Below are positions 22,590 through 29,353 of a DNA stretch of 64,000 nt, piece after piece. The notes beneath the pieces were generated by a model. That model made no database searches. It saw nothing but the letters and a program-made list of their open reading frames with translations, and was not told the DNA's origin. This DNA is from Pusillimonas sp. T7-7 (GTDB taxonomy: Bacteria; Pseudomonadota; Gammaproteobacteria; Burkholderiales; Burkholderiaceae_B), in the NCBI RefSeq assembly GCF_000209655.1, contig NC_015458.1, positions 1,054,001 to 1,118,000 on the forward strand. The letters are read 5' to 3'. The first letter of the stretch is position 1; each line of letters starts with the position of its first letter. Both the position numbers and the translations under genes were made by a program.

Positions 22590-23939
22590 ATGACACTAGA
22601 AGTACTAGAAATTGAATCACTCGACCTTGAAGCGCGTGGCGTGGCCCACCGCGACGGCAAGGTCGTTTTTGTGGAAGGGGCTTTGCCGGGTGAGCGTGTT
22701 CTGGCCCGCATTGCCCGGCGCAAGCCTTCGTTTGATACCGCCAGGACTGAGCAGATACTGAAGTCGTCCTCGCAGCGTGTCGCGCCGCCCTGTCCGTATT
22801 TCGGGGTATGCGGAGGGTGCGCCATGCAGCACCTGGAACCGGCTGCGCAGGTGGCCGTCAAGCAGCGTGTACTGGAAGACGCTTTGGCCCATATCGGCAA
22901 GGTAAGCCCTGGCAGGGTATTGCCACCGCTGCATGGGCCCACTTTCGGCTATCGCTATCGTGCACGGCTGTCGGTGCGGGTGGTCAGGAAAAAGGGCGGG
23001 GTGCTGGTCGGCTTTCGTGAGCGTCGAGGCAGCTATGTGGCCGACATGACCAGCTGTCTTGTGCTGCCGCCACAGGTATCGAATTTATTGCCGCTATTGC
23101 GCGAGCTGGTGGGTTCGCTGTCGCAGCCCGATCGCATTCCCCAGATAGAGGTGGCTGTAGGCGATCAGGTCATGGCGCTGTTGCTGCGCCACATGGAAGC
23201 GTTGACGCCGGCCGATATTGCCTTGTTGCGTGATTTTGGCGAACGGCACAATGTTAGCTGGTGGCTGCAGCCCAAGGGGCCTGAAACCGTGCATCTGCTT
23301 GATGCAAGCGATGCAGACCGTCTGGCTTACACTTTGCCAGAATTCGGCTTGCGCATGCCTTACCGGCCTACCGATTTCACCCAGGTCAATCACGCCATCA
23401 ATCGGGCGCTCATTTCAAAAGCCTTGAATTTGCTGAATGTGCAAGCGGGCGATCGTGTTGCCGACTTGTTTTGCGGCCTGGGCAATTTCACTTTGCCGCT
23501 GGCCACTCGGGCTGCTGCCGTGGTGGGGATCGAAGGCAGTGCAGCCCTGACGGAACGCGCGCTTGATGCCGCACGCCAGCACGGGCTGGATGCCAAGACA
23601 GCGTTTTCGACCTTGAACTTGTTCGAGGTCGACGTGCAATGGCTGCGGGATCTCGGGCGATTCGATCGCATGCTGATCGATCCGCCCAGGGAAGGGGCCG
23701 AGGCCGTGGCCCGGGCCCTGTCGGCGTTGACGCCCGCCGAGCGGCCTCAACGCATCGTGTATGTATCCTGCAGTCCAGCCACCCTGGCACGCGATGCCGG
23801 CATACTGGTGCACGAGGGCGGTTATCGATTGGAAAGCGCGGGCGCCATCAATATGTTCCCGCATACCGGGCACGTTGAGTCTATTGCTGTGTTTGAAGCG
23901 CCAGGCATTGACGGCGCAGTTGCTCGATCAGATGCCTGA
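22590..23939 (+). CDS. rlmD: 23S rRNA (uracil-1939-C5)-methyltransferase RlmD
   Basis: The 449-residue enzyme methylates U1939 of 23S rRNA. It has an N-terminal TRAM domain, an iron-sulfur cluster motif with [10 protein letters not shown] (the fourth Cys lies later), a SAM-binding domain with [14 protein letters not shown] and the catalytic cysteine in [19 protein letters not shown] is also present. The start at 22590 gives [17 protein letters not shown], typical of TRAM. The last codons overlap the 3' end of the opposite-strand BTAD regulator gene by 59 bases. Confidence 0.95.
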
Positions 23940-26900
23940 AAAAACCTTCGTGAACCTTTAGTGCCGCTTGCAGGCCTTCATCGATGATGTGCAGCTGTTC
24001 TTTATGGCGCCCAAGAAAGCCATAAGCTTCAGCCTGTGCGTGGATGAACATGACGGCCACGCCAGGCATGATCTGCTTCACGCCCTGGACGCAATCCTTC
24101 AACTTGATCAAGCCCTCTTCGTTGCCGTCATAGGCCTGTTTCCAGCCCAGCAGCATGTCGCCGATTCCGCGCCATAACACCAATTGATGGAAATTGGCGG
24201 AATGCCGGACTTGCTGCGCCAGCCTGGCTGTAGTTTCTGCGTTGCCCAGAAAGCGATGCAGCATGGCGGCAAATGCCAACGCAAAACAAAGGGTGTCAGG
24301 GGAGTCGTGTAATTGCGCCAACTCTACCGATTGGCGGCTGACCGCCAGCGCGTCGCTGATCCGGTTCATCCGCCAATATGCCCAGGAAAGATGTGCAAGA
24401 CTGGTGACTCGTGGATCAAGCCCTTCGACGGTGCTGCCTGCCGCGTCCAAGGGATGCGCCATAGCGGCTTGGGCATAGCGGCAGGCGTCATCGAGCTGAT
24501 TGCGCCACAGGCTGATGTTGGTGGCGGCTGAGTAGGCCTGTACAAGCAGATTGTCGTTACCGCTTTTGCGAGCCAGTTGCAGCAACTGCCGGGTAATGTT
24601 CCATGATTGTTTGAAGCTGGACCCGGGGCGTGAACTGGACACCATCCATTGTCCCCACAGGACTTCAAATCGCTGCCTGTGTGAAACGCTGGCATTGTCC
24701 AGTACCAGGGCACGATCATAGACAGCTGCGGCATCTGCAGAGCCGTAGCCGCGCAATAACAGCATGCCTTGACCCAGCGAAACCAGAAACTCGCGCTCGA
24801 GCGTATCGCGTTCGTGATCCTGGGGCAGCTTCATGACAAGATCGAGTCCGGTTTGCAAGTAGCCGCAGGCTTCGGCGTTGGCCGACACACGCAAGGCCTT
24901 GCGGCCTGCGGCCAGCCACCAGGGCAGGGCCGCAGGGATATCGCCCGCGGCCGTGTAATGACGCGCGATTTCACCAGGCTGCTGGGCGGTTCGGTGAGCA
25001 TAATGCGTAGCAAGCACGACAGCCACTTGCTGATGGGCTTCTTGCATGTCGGCATGCACTTGAGATGCGTAGGCCGCCTCCTGGATGAGCGCGTGATGGA
25101 ATTGGTAGATGGCATGCTGAGGCTCGACCAAGGATATAAGGCGCGCCTCGGTCAGTTGATGCAGGATGGCCGCCAGTTTTTTATCGTCCAGCGTGCTGAC
25201 GCGTTGCAACAGATCGCGCTCGAACTTGCGGCCAATGGTGGCGGCAAACTGTAAAAGACGGCGGGCATGCGGCACGGCATCCAGGCGGATCCGAAGCAGA
25301 TAGTGCAGGGTGGCTGGTATATCGTCGTGGCCGGATGTTGAAGGCAACAGCGCCATTTCTTCAGCATATAAGGGTATGCCGTCTGCCCGCTGAACGATGT
25401 GCTCTATGGACTGCTTCGATAATGTTTTGCTGGCGGCGGCCTGGGCCAGTCGCGCGATGTGCTGCCCTTTCAAGGGATTGAGTTCGAGCACTGAACCGGT
25501 TTTCAGCCAGGAAGGCCTGAATTCACTACGGGCCGTGACCAGAGTAAAGAGCGCGACTGGATCTTTTCGATGTACAAGCCGATCCAGTAAGTCGAGACTG
25601 GTGGTGTCTAGCCATTGTGCGTCTTCGATGATCAGCAGCAATGCTCTGCGACTTGCTATGCTGTCCAGCAGGGTAAGCAGCATATCCAGGGTTTGCTGTT
25701 TGCGCTGGCGTGGTGGCAGCACTGACGCCTGGGGTGGCGCAATGGAAAGCATGGCCATCAGGATAGGGTAGGCTTGTGACGCGATGGCAGGGTGGTGATG
25801 AGCCAGGCGCCGGCCCAGTTTTTCGCGACGATCGGCAACGGTATCGTCCCCAGCGAATCCCAATGTTGCTTCAAACATGGAAATAATGGGATGGAACGGT
25901 GTGTGCTGATGTTCCGGATAGCAATGAAGATGGCGTATGACCGAGTTCGCTGGAATTGCCTGGTCGCGCAGCGCGCGCGCGAGGCGCGTTTTCCCCAGGC
26001 CCGCTTCGCCTCGCAGCACCAGAAACTGTGGTTGGCCGGACAAGGCAAGCTGCCACAGCCGTTTCAGGCGCTGAAGCTCGGATCTTCTTCCGATCAGTCC
26101 AGAGTGCGGCTGCGTTGCATCGTGGTCACCGCCCGGCGCCTCGCCGAGCAGTTTGTAAACAGGCATCTGGCTGCCGCCTGATTCGATATCATGGTCTTTG
26201 ATATGCAGCGGCTTAAGGGTCTGAAGGCGGAATCGTCCATGCAGCAGGCGCCGGGTAGTGTCGCTGACGACGATGCCGCCTCGTTGCATGCGCCGACACA
26301 GTTGCCAGGCAAAGGCGGAAACGTTGCCGATGATGTCCGGAAGGGCGGGATCGAAGCCGGTGACGATGATCCCGGTGTGTATGCCGGCCCGAAACTGATA
26401 GTGCGGCGCCAGACACGCCTGAAGTTCAAGGGCCGCCCGCACCGCTTGCGGACCGGCATGTTCAGATGCTTCGGGGTAACCCACGTAGGCATAGATATAA
26501 CCGCCTTGCCCCAGTGCAATATGGCCTGCATGGCGACGCAGCACCGATGCACAGACCGAGCGAGGCGCGGCCAGTTGCTCCAGCCCGGCGCCGCTGGCGT
26601 TGGGCTGTAATCCCACATGGCAGCACAAAATAGTGACCTGCCTGCGTCCCGTTTCGGTCAAAGGCATGGCCTGCATCAAGGCGGATGAAACATTGCTCGC
26701 CGCTTGTAGTTCGTTTCTATGTATGGACTCGAAAAGCGCCTGGGTGCTGTCTTCGGGTTCGACATTCAAGTCGCGTTCGAGCTTGTTGCGATAGACGTCG
26801 TAAAAGGTTTGTGCCGAGCCGTGCTGCCCCTTGTATGCCAGCAGGCGCATATGCTGGCGGTGACCCGCTTCGTTCCAGGGTTCCAACTGAATGCAGCGTA

Positions 26901-27507
26901 AGGCATAGGCCAGGGCTGTCTCGAGATTTCCCTGAGACTCATGGGTGTTGCTCAATTGCTCTGCCAGGGCGAAAGCCAGGCCTCGCAGACTCAGGCGTTG
27001 AGTGTCCAGCCAAATATCGAAGTCGGGCGTGTCACTCAGCGACACGCCCGCCAGGAATTCTCCTTGATAGGTTTTGAAACGCATTTCAAGGTGGCTCAGG
27101 CACGATTCACATGGTGTTGGCAGAGACTTTGTTGTGCATTGGAGACAAACCGGCGCTGGCTCGGTGAAGATTTTCAGGTCAACCCGGCAGCGCGATACAC
27201 CATGCATGAATCGCACGGTATCGCGGTTGCTGGACAGCAAGAAGGCCGCATCCGTGTGGAATGCCTGCCGCAAGTAATACAGGGCCTGGCGCAAGTTGCC
27301 GCGAGCGGCATCAGGAGGGAGGGCGGGCCAAAACAGCGCCGCCAGGTGTTCACGCGTATGGCTGCGGTCGGACTCGGCGATCAGGTAGGCAAGCAGGGCA
27401 ATGACTTTGTCGTATAGCTTTCCGTTCAGGGCCTGTTCGTCCCGCATCAGTTGCACCTCGCCCAAAAGACGTATCGACAAGGAGGGACGGGAAAAAGTCG
27501 AGCTCAT
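23881..27507 (-). CDS. large BTAD-type regulator with degenerate cyclase domain and AAA ATPase
   Basis: This 1208-residue protein combines an OmpR/AfsR-like winged helix (about residues 10-100), a BTAD helical domain (about 110-265), a degenerate class III nucleotidyl cyclase domain (about 288-455), an AAA/STAND ATPase (Walker A GEAGLGKT, about 500-507; Walker [13 protein letters not shown]) and a long helical-repeat tail. Four cysteines form CX2C-X8-CX2C at 121-136, a possible metal knuckle. The cyclase part begins [10 protein letters not shown] where active enzymes have an Asp, and its later GDTVN equivalent reads GNVSA, so it probably senses rather than catalyses. It is divergent from a 69-residue gene. 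Targets and signal are unknown. Confidence 0.85.
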
Positions 27508-27674
27508 GGACGCGGCCTGGCTTACGGTCAGTTTACGGTAATTTGTTCAAATCAATACAAAATGAGTTTTTTATTAACTATTTGACAAAGCATAACGTGT
27601 GCGCTTGAACGATGCCAGTATTTCGCTGGGCCTTGCAGCGTTGTTTTTTACTTTGTATTGATGTGCGAGACGAT
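27508..27674. promoter_or_regulatory. divergent AT-rich intergenic region
   Basis: This 167-base gap separates the BTAD regulator from the 69-codon gene. It is clearly more AT-rich than its surroundings. A consensus TTGACA occurs at 27582-27587 on the plus strand, but no good -10 box was found 16-18 bases after it, so promoters are not assigned. Confidence 0.4.
27624..27650 (+). terminator. leader hairpin with T-run before the 69-codon gene
   Basis: CGCTG (27624-27628) pairs with CAGCG (27636-27640), followed by TTGTTTTTTA. It lies 25 bases upstream of the preferred ATG at 27675, so it could attenuate expression. The stem is only five pairs. Confidence 0.35.
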
Positions 27675-27884
27675 ATGAATATTTCAGCCCACACCTTGGA
27701 AACACTGCAGCGCCTGCCCAGCCAGGACGCCTCGTTGCTGGAAAGGTTGTATGCCGCTCAGTCGCTTGAGCAGGCGGTCGAGATCGTAGCCGACTCGGCC
27801 CAGCGCCTGCAGATTGCCATTGATCGGGGCGAACTTACTTTGTATCTGCAAAGTGCGCTGACCATACCCGCCATGACGGAATGA
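27675..27884 (+). CDS. small protein resembling Nif11 leader-like peptides
   Basis: The 69-residue product has no signal peptide or membrane segment. Residues about 8-60 follow the pattern of Nif11-type leader domains: a polar helix, DASLLERLYAAQS in the place of the family's D-P-x-L-x-x-x-L-x-x-A, then EQAVEIVAD and a second helix. There is no GG cleavage site and no Cys-rich core, and no YcaO, LanM or radical SAM gene is near. The ATG at 27675 is preferred; an upstream ATG at 27612 would add 21 residues. It is divergent from the BTAD regulator and ends in a strong hairpin. The family call is tentative. Confidence 0.6.
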   Translation: MNISAHTLETLQRLPSQDASLLERLYAAQSLEQAVEIVADSAQRLQIAIDRGELTLYLQSALTIPAMTE

Positions 27885-27891
27885 AACTATT

Positions 27892-27929
27892 GCAAGGCCA
27901 AAGCATCCCATAAAGTGCTTTGGCCTTGC
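27892..27929. terminator. bidirectional terminator
   Basis: A perfect 14-base stem (27892-27905 with 27916-27929, left arm GCAAGGCCAAAGCA) encloses a 10-base loop. It separates the 69-codon gene from the convergent argH gene. Confidence 0.75.
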
Positions 27930-27934
27930 GCCGT

Positions 27935-29353
27935 TTAACGGGTTCCGTCCAGCACGCGCTGTGCTTCGATCTTGACCCGTTCAGGCGCGGTACCGCCAAT
28001 GTGATTGCGCGCGGCCACCGAGCCTTCCAGCGTCAGCACGTTGAACACGTCTTGTTCGATGGATGGATGAAAAGCCTGAAGCTGTTGCAAAGACAAATCG
28101 GCCAGGTCGCAGCCTTGGTCTTCGCAGGCGCGCACGGCATGGGCGACGGTTTCGTGCGCATCGCGAAATGGCACGCCTTTCTTGACGAGGTAGTCGGCCA
28201 GGTCGGTAGCCGTGGCAAAGCCTTGCAGGGCGGCTGCGCGCATGGCCTCGGGCTTGACCTTGATGCCGCCCACCATGTCCACAAAAATGGTGAGCGTATC
28301 GCGGATGGTGTCAGCCGCATCGAACAGGCCTTCTTTATCTTCCTGGTTGTCTTTGTTGTAGGCCAGGGGCTGGCCTTTCATGAGGGTAAGCAGGGCGATC
28401 AGGTGGCCGTTTACACGCCCGGTCTTGCCGCGCGCCAGTTCGGGTACGTCGGGGTTTTTCTTTTGCGGCATGATCGAACTGCCGGTGCAAAAGCGGTCGG
28501 CCAGATCTATGAAACCCACGCGCGGGCTCATCCACAAGACCAGCTCTTCGGACAGGCGTGAGATATGCGTCATGATCAGGGCGGCGGCGGCGCAGAATTC
28601 GATGGCGAAGTCGCGGTCGGATACGGCGTCGAGCGAGTTGCGGCAGACTTCGTCAAAGCCCAGGGCGGCAGCGACGCGCTCGCGATCGATAGGGTAAGAC
28701 GTGCCCGCCAGGGCGGCGGCGCCCAGCGGCAGGCGGTTGACCCGCTTGCGGCAATCGGCCAGGCGTTCCGCATCGCGGCCGAACATTTCGGCATAGGCCA
28801 GCAAATGATGGCCAAAGGTGACCGGCTGCGCCACTTGCAGGTGGGTGAAGCCGGGCAATATGGTGCCAGCGTGTTCCTGCGCCAAGGCGGCCAGCTTGTG
28901 ACGCAACTGGCGCAGCAAATCAATGGCCAGATCGATTTCATGACGCAGCCACAGGCGGATGTCGGTGGCGACCTGGTCGTTACGCGAACGGCCGGTGTGC
29001 AACCGTTTACCGGCATCGCCGATCAGTTCGACCAGACGTTTTTCGATATTCAGGTGCACATCTTCAAGATCGATGGACCATTCAAGCTTGTTCGATTCGA
29101 TTTCTTCCAGGATTTGGGCCATGCCTTGCTGGATGGCGACATTGTCGTCGGCACTGATGATGCCTATGGAAGCGAGCATATCGGCATGAGCCAGCGAGCC
29201 TTGAATGTCGAACGGAGCCAGGCGTTGCTCGAAGTTGATGGACGCCGTATAGCGTTTGACCAGCTCGGAGACGGGTTCGGAAAACCGGGCGGACCAGGCC
29301 TGTGCTTTGTTGGCAAACTGGTTTTGCAGATCGGAAGAAGTATTTTTTGGCAT
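27935..29353 (-). CDS. argH: argininosuccinate lyase
   Basis: The 472-residue enzyme cleaves argininosuccinate to arginine and fumarate, the last step of arginine synthesis. The superfamily signature [12 protein letters not shown] is present, with catalytic His in the [12 protein letters not shown] and [10 protein letters not shown] regions. The start [24 protein letters not shown] at 29353 gives the family length; the open frame further upstream is not used. No SD is visible, and a TATAAT box (29368-29363) lies only 9 bases upstream, so a very short leader is possible. It is divergent from a mechanosensitive channel gene. Confidence 0.95.

Follow-up and report, generated by a model that had tools for sequence, protein, structure and literature searches.

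The genome of Pusillimonas sp. T7-7 (3.92 Mb; grouped in the same genus as Pollutimonas harenae) carries a divergent pair of genes, one for a 1208-residue protein classed here as a large SARP-type regulator and the other, of 69 codons, for what appears to be a Nif11-type leader domain without a core peptide. The pair was analysed in a window of 64,000 nt (NC_015458.1, positions 1,054,001 to 1,118,000). All coordinates below are those of the window and "T7-7" denotes this locus. Both open reading frames (ORFs) described in an earlier note on this DNA were confirmed, and its view of the locus as a regulatory pair holds, the pairing being found in all five loci with a strong small-protein match; its further view, of a pair that senses something and controls this one small protein, is conjecture. 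The note had not recognised the missing core, the SARP-type 11-bp repeat between the two genes or the two-partner-secretion genes present in two Pusillimonas cassettes. On balance, we favour a local SARP-type regulatory cassette in which the coreless leader has been reused as an intracellular protein-binding factor. The leader-regulator pair is sound as an observation, while the job assigned to the small protein is a guess.

A leader domain without a core

A single-sequence database search with the small protein returned 4 proteins only, two of them T7-7's own. In searches of single genomes, the protein matched three tandem Gly-Gly-type (GG-type) precursor genes of Pollutimonas sp. M17 (genome G018), each with a Gly-Gly motif, the best with E 1.4e-10 and 49% identity over 63 residues; matches with E above 0.001, mostly in long ORFs, were disregarded. 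A profile built from six homologues matched the three M17 genes with E values of 1.6e-14, 6.1e-12 and 3.9e-11. The same genes are also picked by TIGR03798, with scores under its cut-off. The alignment of the small protein with the GG-type leaders of M17 begins at the first residue.

Comparison of the six-homologue profile with six precursors by hhalign gave scores of 34.2 to 35.1. None of 300 column shuffles exceeded 20.4, and the alignment scored 10.5 when reversed. These precursors were picked by TIGR03798, not by likeness to the 69-residue protein. Six of the 12 TIGR03798 matches were used; the excluded ones were four from G018 and one from G038, two genomes that the small-protein query had already found, and a G121 protein of 395 residues. 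Of the precursors used, three came from G011, one of these also being found by the small-protein profile (2.2e-4), and two share 95% identity. A larger search with profile A2 was not counted as independent proof because it includes GG-type rows itself. The solved Nif11 protein 9zn4 matched the TIGR03798-selected profile at 1.3e-10 and the small-protein profile A2 at 0.28 only, with unrelated PDB chains ranking above it, and the PDB profile search returned no solved structure of a close relative. Homology of the small protein to GG-type Nif11 leaders is nevertheless well supported through its relatives. The leader-like pattern noted earlier stands to that extent, and falls short where a direct model match is concerned (see below).

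The 69 residues align with the leader part only and end before the Gly-Gly signal and the core; compared with an M17 leader, the T7-7 protein lacks the last 12 residues. The recognition motif of LahT was mapped to the last 13 leader residues in PMC6363468. The length is 69 residues in 6/6 aligned homologues, all of which end before the Gly-Gly motif, and the small ORF is conserved in five of the six loci with a regulator more than 50% identical; conservation was a point on which the earlier note had staked its reading. Purifying selection on the small gene is shown by computation: the ratio of nonsynonymous to synonymous substitution rates (dN/dS) was 0.06–0.41 in all ten pairs by NG86 and 0.09–0.50 by YN00 in seven of the ten. 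AlphaFold2 (AF2), given a shallow alignment (six sequences), predicted four helices with a confidence (pLDDT) of 84.9. Just upstream of the start codon, CGAGA is found in five aligned loci. Judged by the leader-only alignment, the constant length, the low dN/dS and the four predicted helices, the small protein is a leader domain that stands alone, with no core attached. It has neither the protease signal nor a core and is therefore most likely not a natural-product precursor. When 14 short leaders were placed in a tree, the coreless proteins of the five SARP-linked loci clustered together at 77/89.

The large regulator

The regulator can be divided into a BTAD part with a putative winged helix (residues ~1–265), a degenerate cyclase-like domain (~288–455), an AAA/STAND-like ATPase (~471–650) and a C-terminal half, in agreement with the BTAD, pseudo-cyclase and ATPase make-up proposed earlier. 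In Pfam, BTAD (PF03704, E 1.6e-13, 51.7 bits against a cut-off of 22.1) and AAA_16 (PF13191, E 2e-20) exceed their cut-offs, and the Walker A motif reads GEAGLGKT. The Guanylate_cyc match (E 0.0011) lies under its cut-off and the domain appears degenerate. Class III nucleotide cyclases have two metal-binding Asp residues as a motif; at the expected positions the regulator has, by eye, ILCCHVG and GQGG, with no Asp. The Pfam winged helix (PF00486, E 0.016) and the SARP model BagI_FevR (residues 38–293, E 1.9e-5) are likewise under their cut-offs, and the TPR matches in the C-terminal half are sub-threshold only. The AF2 model of residues 1–270 (pLDDT 73.8) has, by eye, strands and helices in a winged-helix-like order, followed by helices. 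Positions 281–1227 of TIGR03903 align with residues 284–1202 at 364.6 bits (cut-off 705.75). No PDB profile matched the regulator at 0.001.

A CX2C...CX2C insert lies by the BTAD part (residues 107–136, window 27100–27189). It is complete in four of the five full-length orthologues aligned and is not present in three distant relatives. Cys 107, 121, 133 and 136 are invariant in the five-sequence alignment, and Cys 124 is missing in the orthologue of Parapusillimonas granuli. The insert is possibly a metal or redox site.

The shared control region

The start codons of the regulator and the small gene are 167 bp apart, and an 11-bp direct repeat, a heptamer with a 4-bp spacer, lies near the regulator start in 6/6 loci of the clade, 11 bp from the start codon in T7-7. 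SARP sites are described in PMC7040171 as heptamer direct repeats with 4-bp spacers. In the Pusillimonas loci the repeat is GGCTTACG-N3-GGCTTACG, the Pollutimonas loci have one or two changes, and in P. granuli it reads AGTTCACG-N3-AGTTCACG, both copies being altered alike. This paired change is the best single argument for the repeat as a candidate SARP-type operator. The best 7-base match at a lag of 11 was equalled by 0.4–1.8% of 500 shuffles per locus, T7-7 being the weakest, and the same test for 9 bases gave 0–2.2%. A TTGnTCAAAT block stands beside the repeat in all six loci. The exact pattern, which was derived from this site and its relatives, occurs once in the T7-7 genome. With up to 2 mismatches allowed, the pattern matched the genome 13 times and its reversed control 14 times, so that no further regulon site can be claimed. 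No consensus sigma-70 promoter was found in 27400–28000, which says little because only 0.4 were expected.

Distribution of the pair

The small protein was sought in 268 genomes of the family and the regulator in 151. With the six-homologue profile, matches at E 0.001 or better were obtained in 10 of the 268. Strong matches (E 5e-38 or better) came from five genomes, namely T7-7, P. harenae, P. noertemannii, P. caeni and the Pusillimonas metagenome-assembled genome (MAG) bin3, and the remaining five held GG-type or other leader-like proteins. Among 399 genomes sampled from the order, that of T7-7 alone matched at 1e-4. Regulator matches at 1e-20 were found in 28/151 genomes, and a regulator more than 50% identical in six, T7-7 counted; a non-exhaustive scan of named genomes with two peptide patterns recovered the same five relatives.

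In every one of the five strong loci, the small gene faces the regulator orthologue between rlmD and argH, and rlmD directly adjoins argH in 4/4 cassette-free genomes examined (G020, G056, G018 and G024). The earlier note had asked whether the two proteins are always neighbours. Seen from the small protein they are (5/5), and seen from the regulator at more than 50% identity they are in five of six loci. The sixth regulator, that of P. granuli, occupies another genomic site and faces a 1113-residue protein with an RTX repeat match. The P. caeni orthologue has 688 residues, is without the C-terminal half and runs into rlmD (L059:11445-13511).

Proposed mechanism and its alternatives

The leader homology, the neighbourhood, the operator-like repeat and the purifying selection on which a mechanism can be built are all computed. 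In the scheme proposed here, a signal, itself a guess, would reach the ATPase/C-terminal half of the regulator. The SARP part most likely binds the 11-bp repeat in the divergent region, and the regulator would then turn on the small gene and tune its own; DNA binding and activation are steps that we infer. The small gene would yield a four-helix Nif11-type leader domain, most likely not a precursor, which most likely works inside the cell by binding a protein. Our best guess for the partner is the regulator itself or another client of the regulon. A more specific form, which we put forward tentatively and with more doubt than confidence, makes the coreless leader a ligand or co-effector of the SARP-type STAND ATPase that controls it from a shared operator, the pair having once timed an exoprotein.

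Several results weigh against the regulatory cassette with a reused leader. TIGR03798, named in the earlier note as the test of the 69-residue protein with a missing hit to be taken as refutation, gave no match at E up to 10 (curated cut-off 32.3 bits), and by that rule the claim of the note would be refuted; nor did it match at E 0.01 anywhere in the T7-7 genome. PF07862 gave 12.9 bits (E 0.14, residues 17–39) and did not reach its gathering score of 23.8, and no NCBIfam Nif11 model matches the protein. As for the repeat, its six loci are related by descent, and 6/6 is therefore not six independent tests. When the DNA upstream of the matched part was examined for 14 more distant regulators (L038 and L046-L054 not included), 13 were without a significant 11-bp repeat (0.097 or higher) and L040 stood at 0.02; the repeat is therefore claimed for this clade only. 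It lies near the regulator start, 137 bp from the small gene, and its control of the small gene is therefore something that we infer. P. granuli retains regulator and repeat with no adjacent small gene, so that the small protein is dispensable for the persistence of such a regulator. P. caeni has kept both the small gene and the 11-bp repeat intact beside a regulator of only 688 residues, which agrees poorly with feedback from the small protein onto the C-terminal half.

The main rival, which we regard as rather unlikely, sees the small gene as an accessory of an exoprotein. The ancestral cassette would have held the regulator, the small gene, TpsA and TpsB, T7-7 would be the remains after loss of tpsA/tpsB, and the small protein, or the gene with a terminator, would help to make or time the secreted protein. 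This proposition finds support in MAG bin3 and P. caeni, where genes for a two-partner-secretion (TPS) domain protein (ORFs of 1333 and 1345 residues; MBG and YDG domains present) and for a ShlB/POTRA transporter lie downstream of the small gene in the same orientation; identity between the two loci is 46–55% for the former and 71% for the latter. The RTX-repeat-match protein that the P. granuli regulator faces points in the same direction. Nevertheless, the three of the five cassettes without tpsA/tpsB keep a small gene of the same length under purifying selection. Moreover, in both TPS loci a stem with a T-run was seen by eye in the stretch that separates the small gene from tpsA, though folding of the region is better than shuffles in the MAG (z −5.9) and not in P. 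caeni (z −0.6).

Two further alternatives concern pathways for ribosomally synthesized and post-translationally modified peptides (RiPPs). In line with the earlier note, which had seen no RiPP modification gene nearby, none was seen by eye among the ORFs at 18–34 kb of the window. Genome-wide, only C39 peptidases and LanC-like proteins were searched, with no match in T7-7. C39 was found in 0/5 pair-bearing genomes and LanC-like proteins in 0/7 genomes searched; YcaO, radical-SAM and other RiPP enzymes lay outside these searches. A C39 peptidase is present in the G018 and P. granuli genomes. The M17 tandem GG-type precursors (L055:2381-10087) have as neighbours an outer-membrane efflux protein and two ABC transporters, one of them a C39-ABC exporter, in a genome with no LanC-like match. 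Another GG-type Nif11-like precursor of M17 adjoins a long ORF named polyketide-synthase-like by eye (L065:9646-18999).

It is improbable that the small gene is a decaying RiPP precursor which has lost its core. Both the homology to GG-type precursors and the T7-7 genome without a C39 or LanC-like match would agree with decay, but the end point is identical in six sequences, neither NG86 nor YN00 gives a dN/dS above 0.50 for any computable pair, and the small gene adjoins the regulator in 5/5 loci. More doubtful still is an in-trans leader that activates a RiPP-modifying enzyme whose gene lies at another locus. A leader can be recognised without an attached core, and this separate recognition would suit the retained leader domain, whereas the C39 and LanC-like counts, within the enzymes searched, speak against it. 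Chance likeness between short helical proteins, for which one may cite the lack of a direct model match over cut-off and the PDB chains that outscore 9zn4, is very hard to reconcile with 49% identity over 63 residues at E 1.4e-10 in one genome and with an hhalign score of 34, where the best of 300 shuffles was 20.4, for precursors chosen independently by TIGR03798.

Features and setting of the locus

The features of the locus are collected in Table 1. The flanking genes are rlmD and argH (names assigned from their sequences), which also flank the cassette in the relatives; argH is convergent with the small gene. GC content is 0.582 for the regulator, 0.571 for the small gene and 0.572 for the whole window. 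A mobile cassette was considered and rejected, the GC content being near that of the window and the small protein having no plasmid match (phages, and the regulator, were not so searched).

Table 1. Features of the divergent pair and its control region, in window coordinates.
Feature	Position	Strand	Basis
Large SARP-like regulator, 1208 aa	23881..27507	-	ORF, Pfam, NCBIfam, AF2 of residues 1-270
Candidate operator, 11-bp direct repeat GGCTTACG-N3-AGTTTACG	27519..27537	+	Kept in 6/6 loci of the clade
Near-palindromic block TTTGTTCAAA beside the repeat	27542..27551	+	Alignment of six upstream regions
Conserved block AAGCATAACG, possible promoter element	27588..27597	+	Invariant in five small-gene loci
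69-codon gene, coreless Nif11-type leader domain	27675..27884	+	ORF, profiles, alignments, AF2, dN/dS
Hairpin, 14 bp perfect + one G-U, between small gene and argH	27892..27929	.	z -5.3

The hairpin that was noted earlier after the small gene is real. It consists of 14 Watson-Crick pairs and one G-U, its z score refers to 200 shuffled versions of the 75 bases that follow the stop codon, and no T-run comes after it. The terminator-like hairpin placed by the same note in the leader of the small gene (27624–27640) did not hold up, with 1 found against 0.9 ± 1.0 in shuffles, which is chance level. The 85 bases before the small-gene start of T7-7 fold no better than shuffles (z 0.45), and a stem with a T-run before the small gene was seen by eye in P. 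noertemannii only among the five loci (z −2.7). Attenuation by a 5′-leader hairpin was rejected, as the element is at chance level and not conserved. No Rfam family exceeded its gathering score in 23800–28000.

A 68-residue coreless Nif11-like protein is found beside lexA near 9.3–10.1 kb of L056 and L057 (P. granuli and its relative G024). No SARP regulator was seen near the 68-residue proteins in these two loci.

Comparison with known systems

RiPP leaders have mostly been studied as handles for enzymes. Among the open papers listed or read, nothing was found on a SARP regulator paired with a Nif11 leader that lacks its core, nor on SARP control of two-partner secretion. If true, a conserved coreless leader with a dedicated regulator and no detected C39 peptidase would bear on what the Nif11 domain does alone, in a two-gene system small enough for testing. 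It may also tie a SARP-like regulator to secreted exoproteins and not to antibiotic clusters.

Nif11 was named, according to PMC2887384, for nitrogen-fixation-linked proteins of no known function. With the Nif11-derived precursors (N11P, TIGR03798/PF07862) the T7-7 small protein shares the leader domain at the N terminus, the alignment starting at residue 1. It differs from them in having no Gly-Gly motif and no core, in a genome without a C39 or LanC-like match, and it reaches no model cut-off. Parapusillimonas and its relatives have 68-residue coreless Nif11-like proteins (P0008, P0010 and P0011) that are likewise leader-only, P0008 and P0010 being 34 and 32% identical to the T7-7 small protein. 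In contrast to the latter, they stand beside lexA in the two loci read, and a C39 peptidase was found in P. granuli.

Large SARP regulators consist, as given in PMC7040171, of a winged helix, BTAD, NTPase and TPR. The T7-7 regulator appears to follow the same domain order and has a candidate heptamer direct-repeat site with an 11-bp period at its gene start, as in that account. In contrast to them, its host is a betaproteobacterium, no biosynthetic cluster was seen at 18–34 kb, and it adds the degenerate cyclase-like domain and the CX2C...CX2C insert. The TOMM kinase/cyclase fusion (TIGR03903) is similar over residues 284–1202 of the regulator; model positions 1–280 are unmatched, and the T7-7 protein has the SARP part instead.

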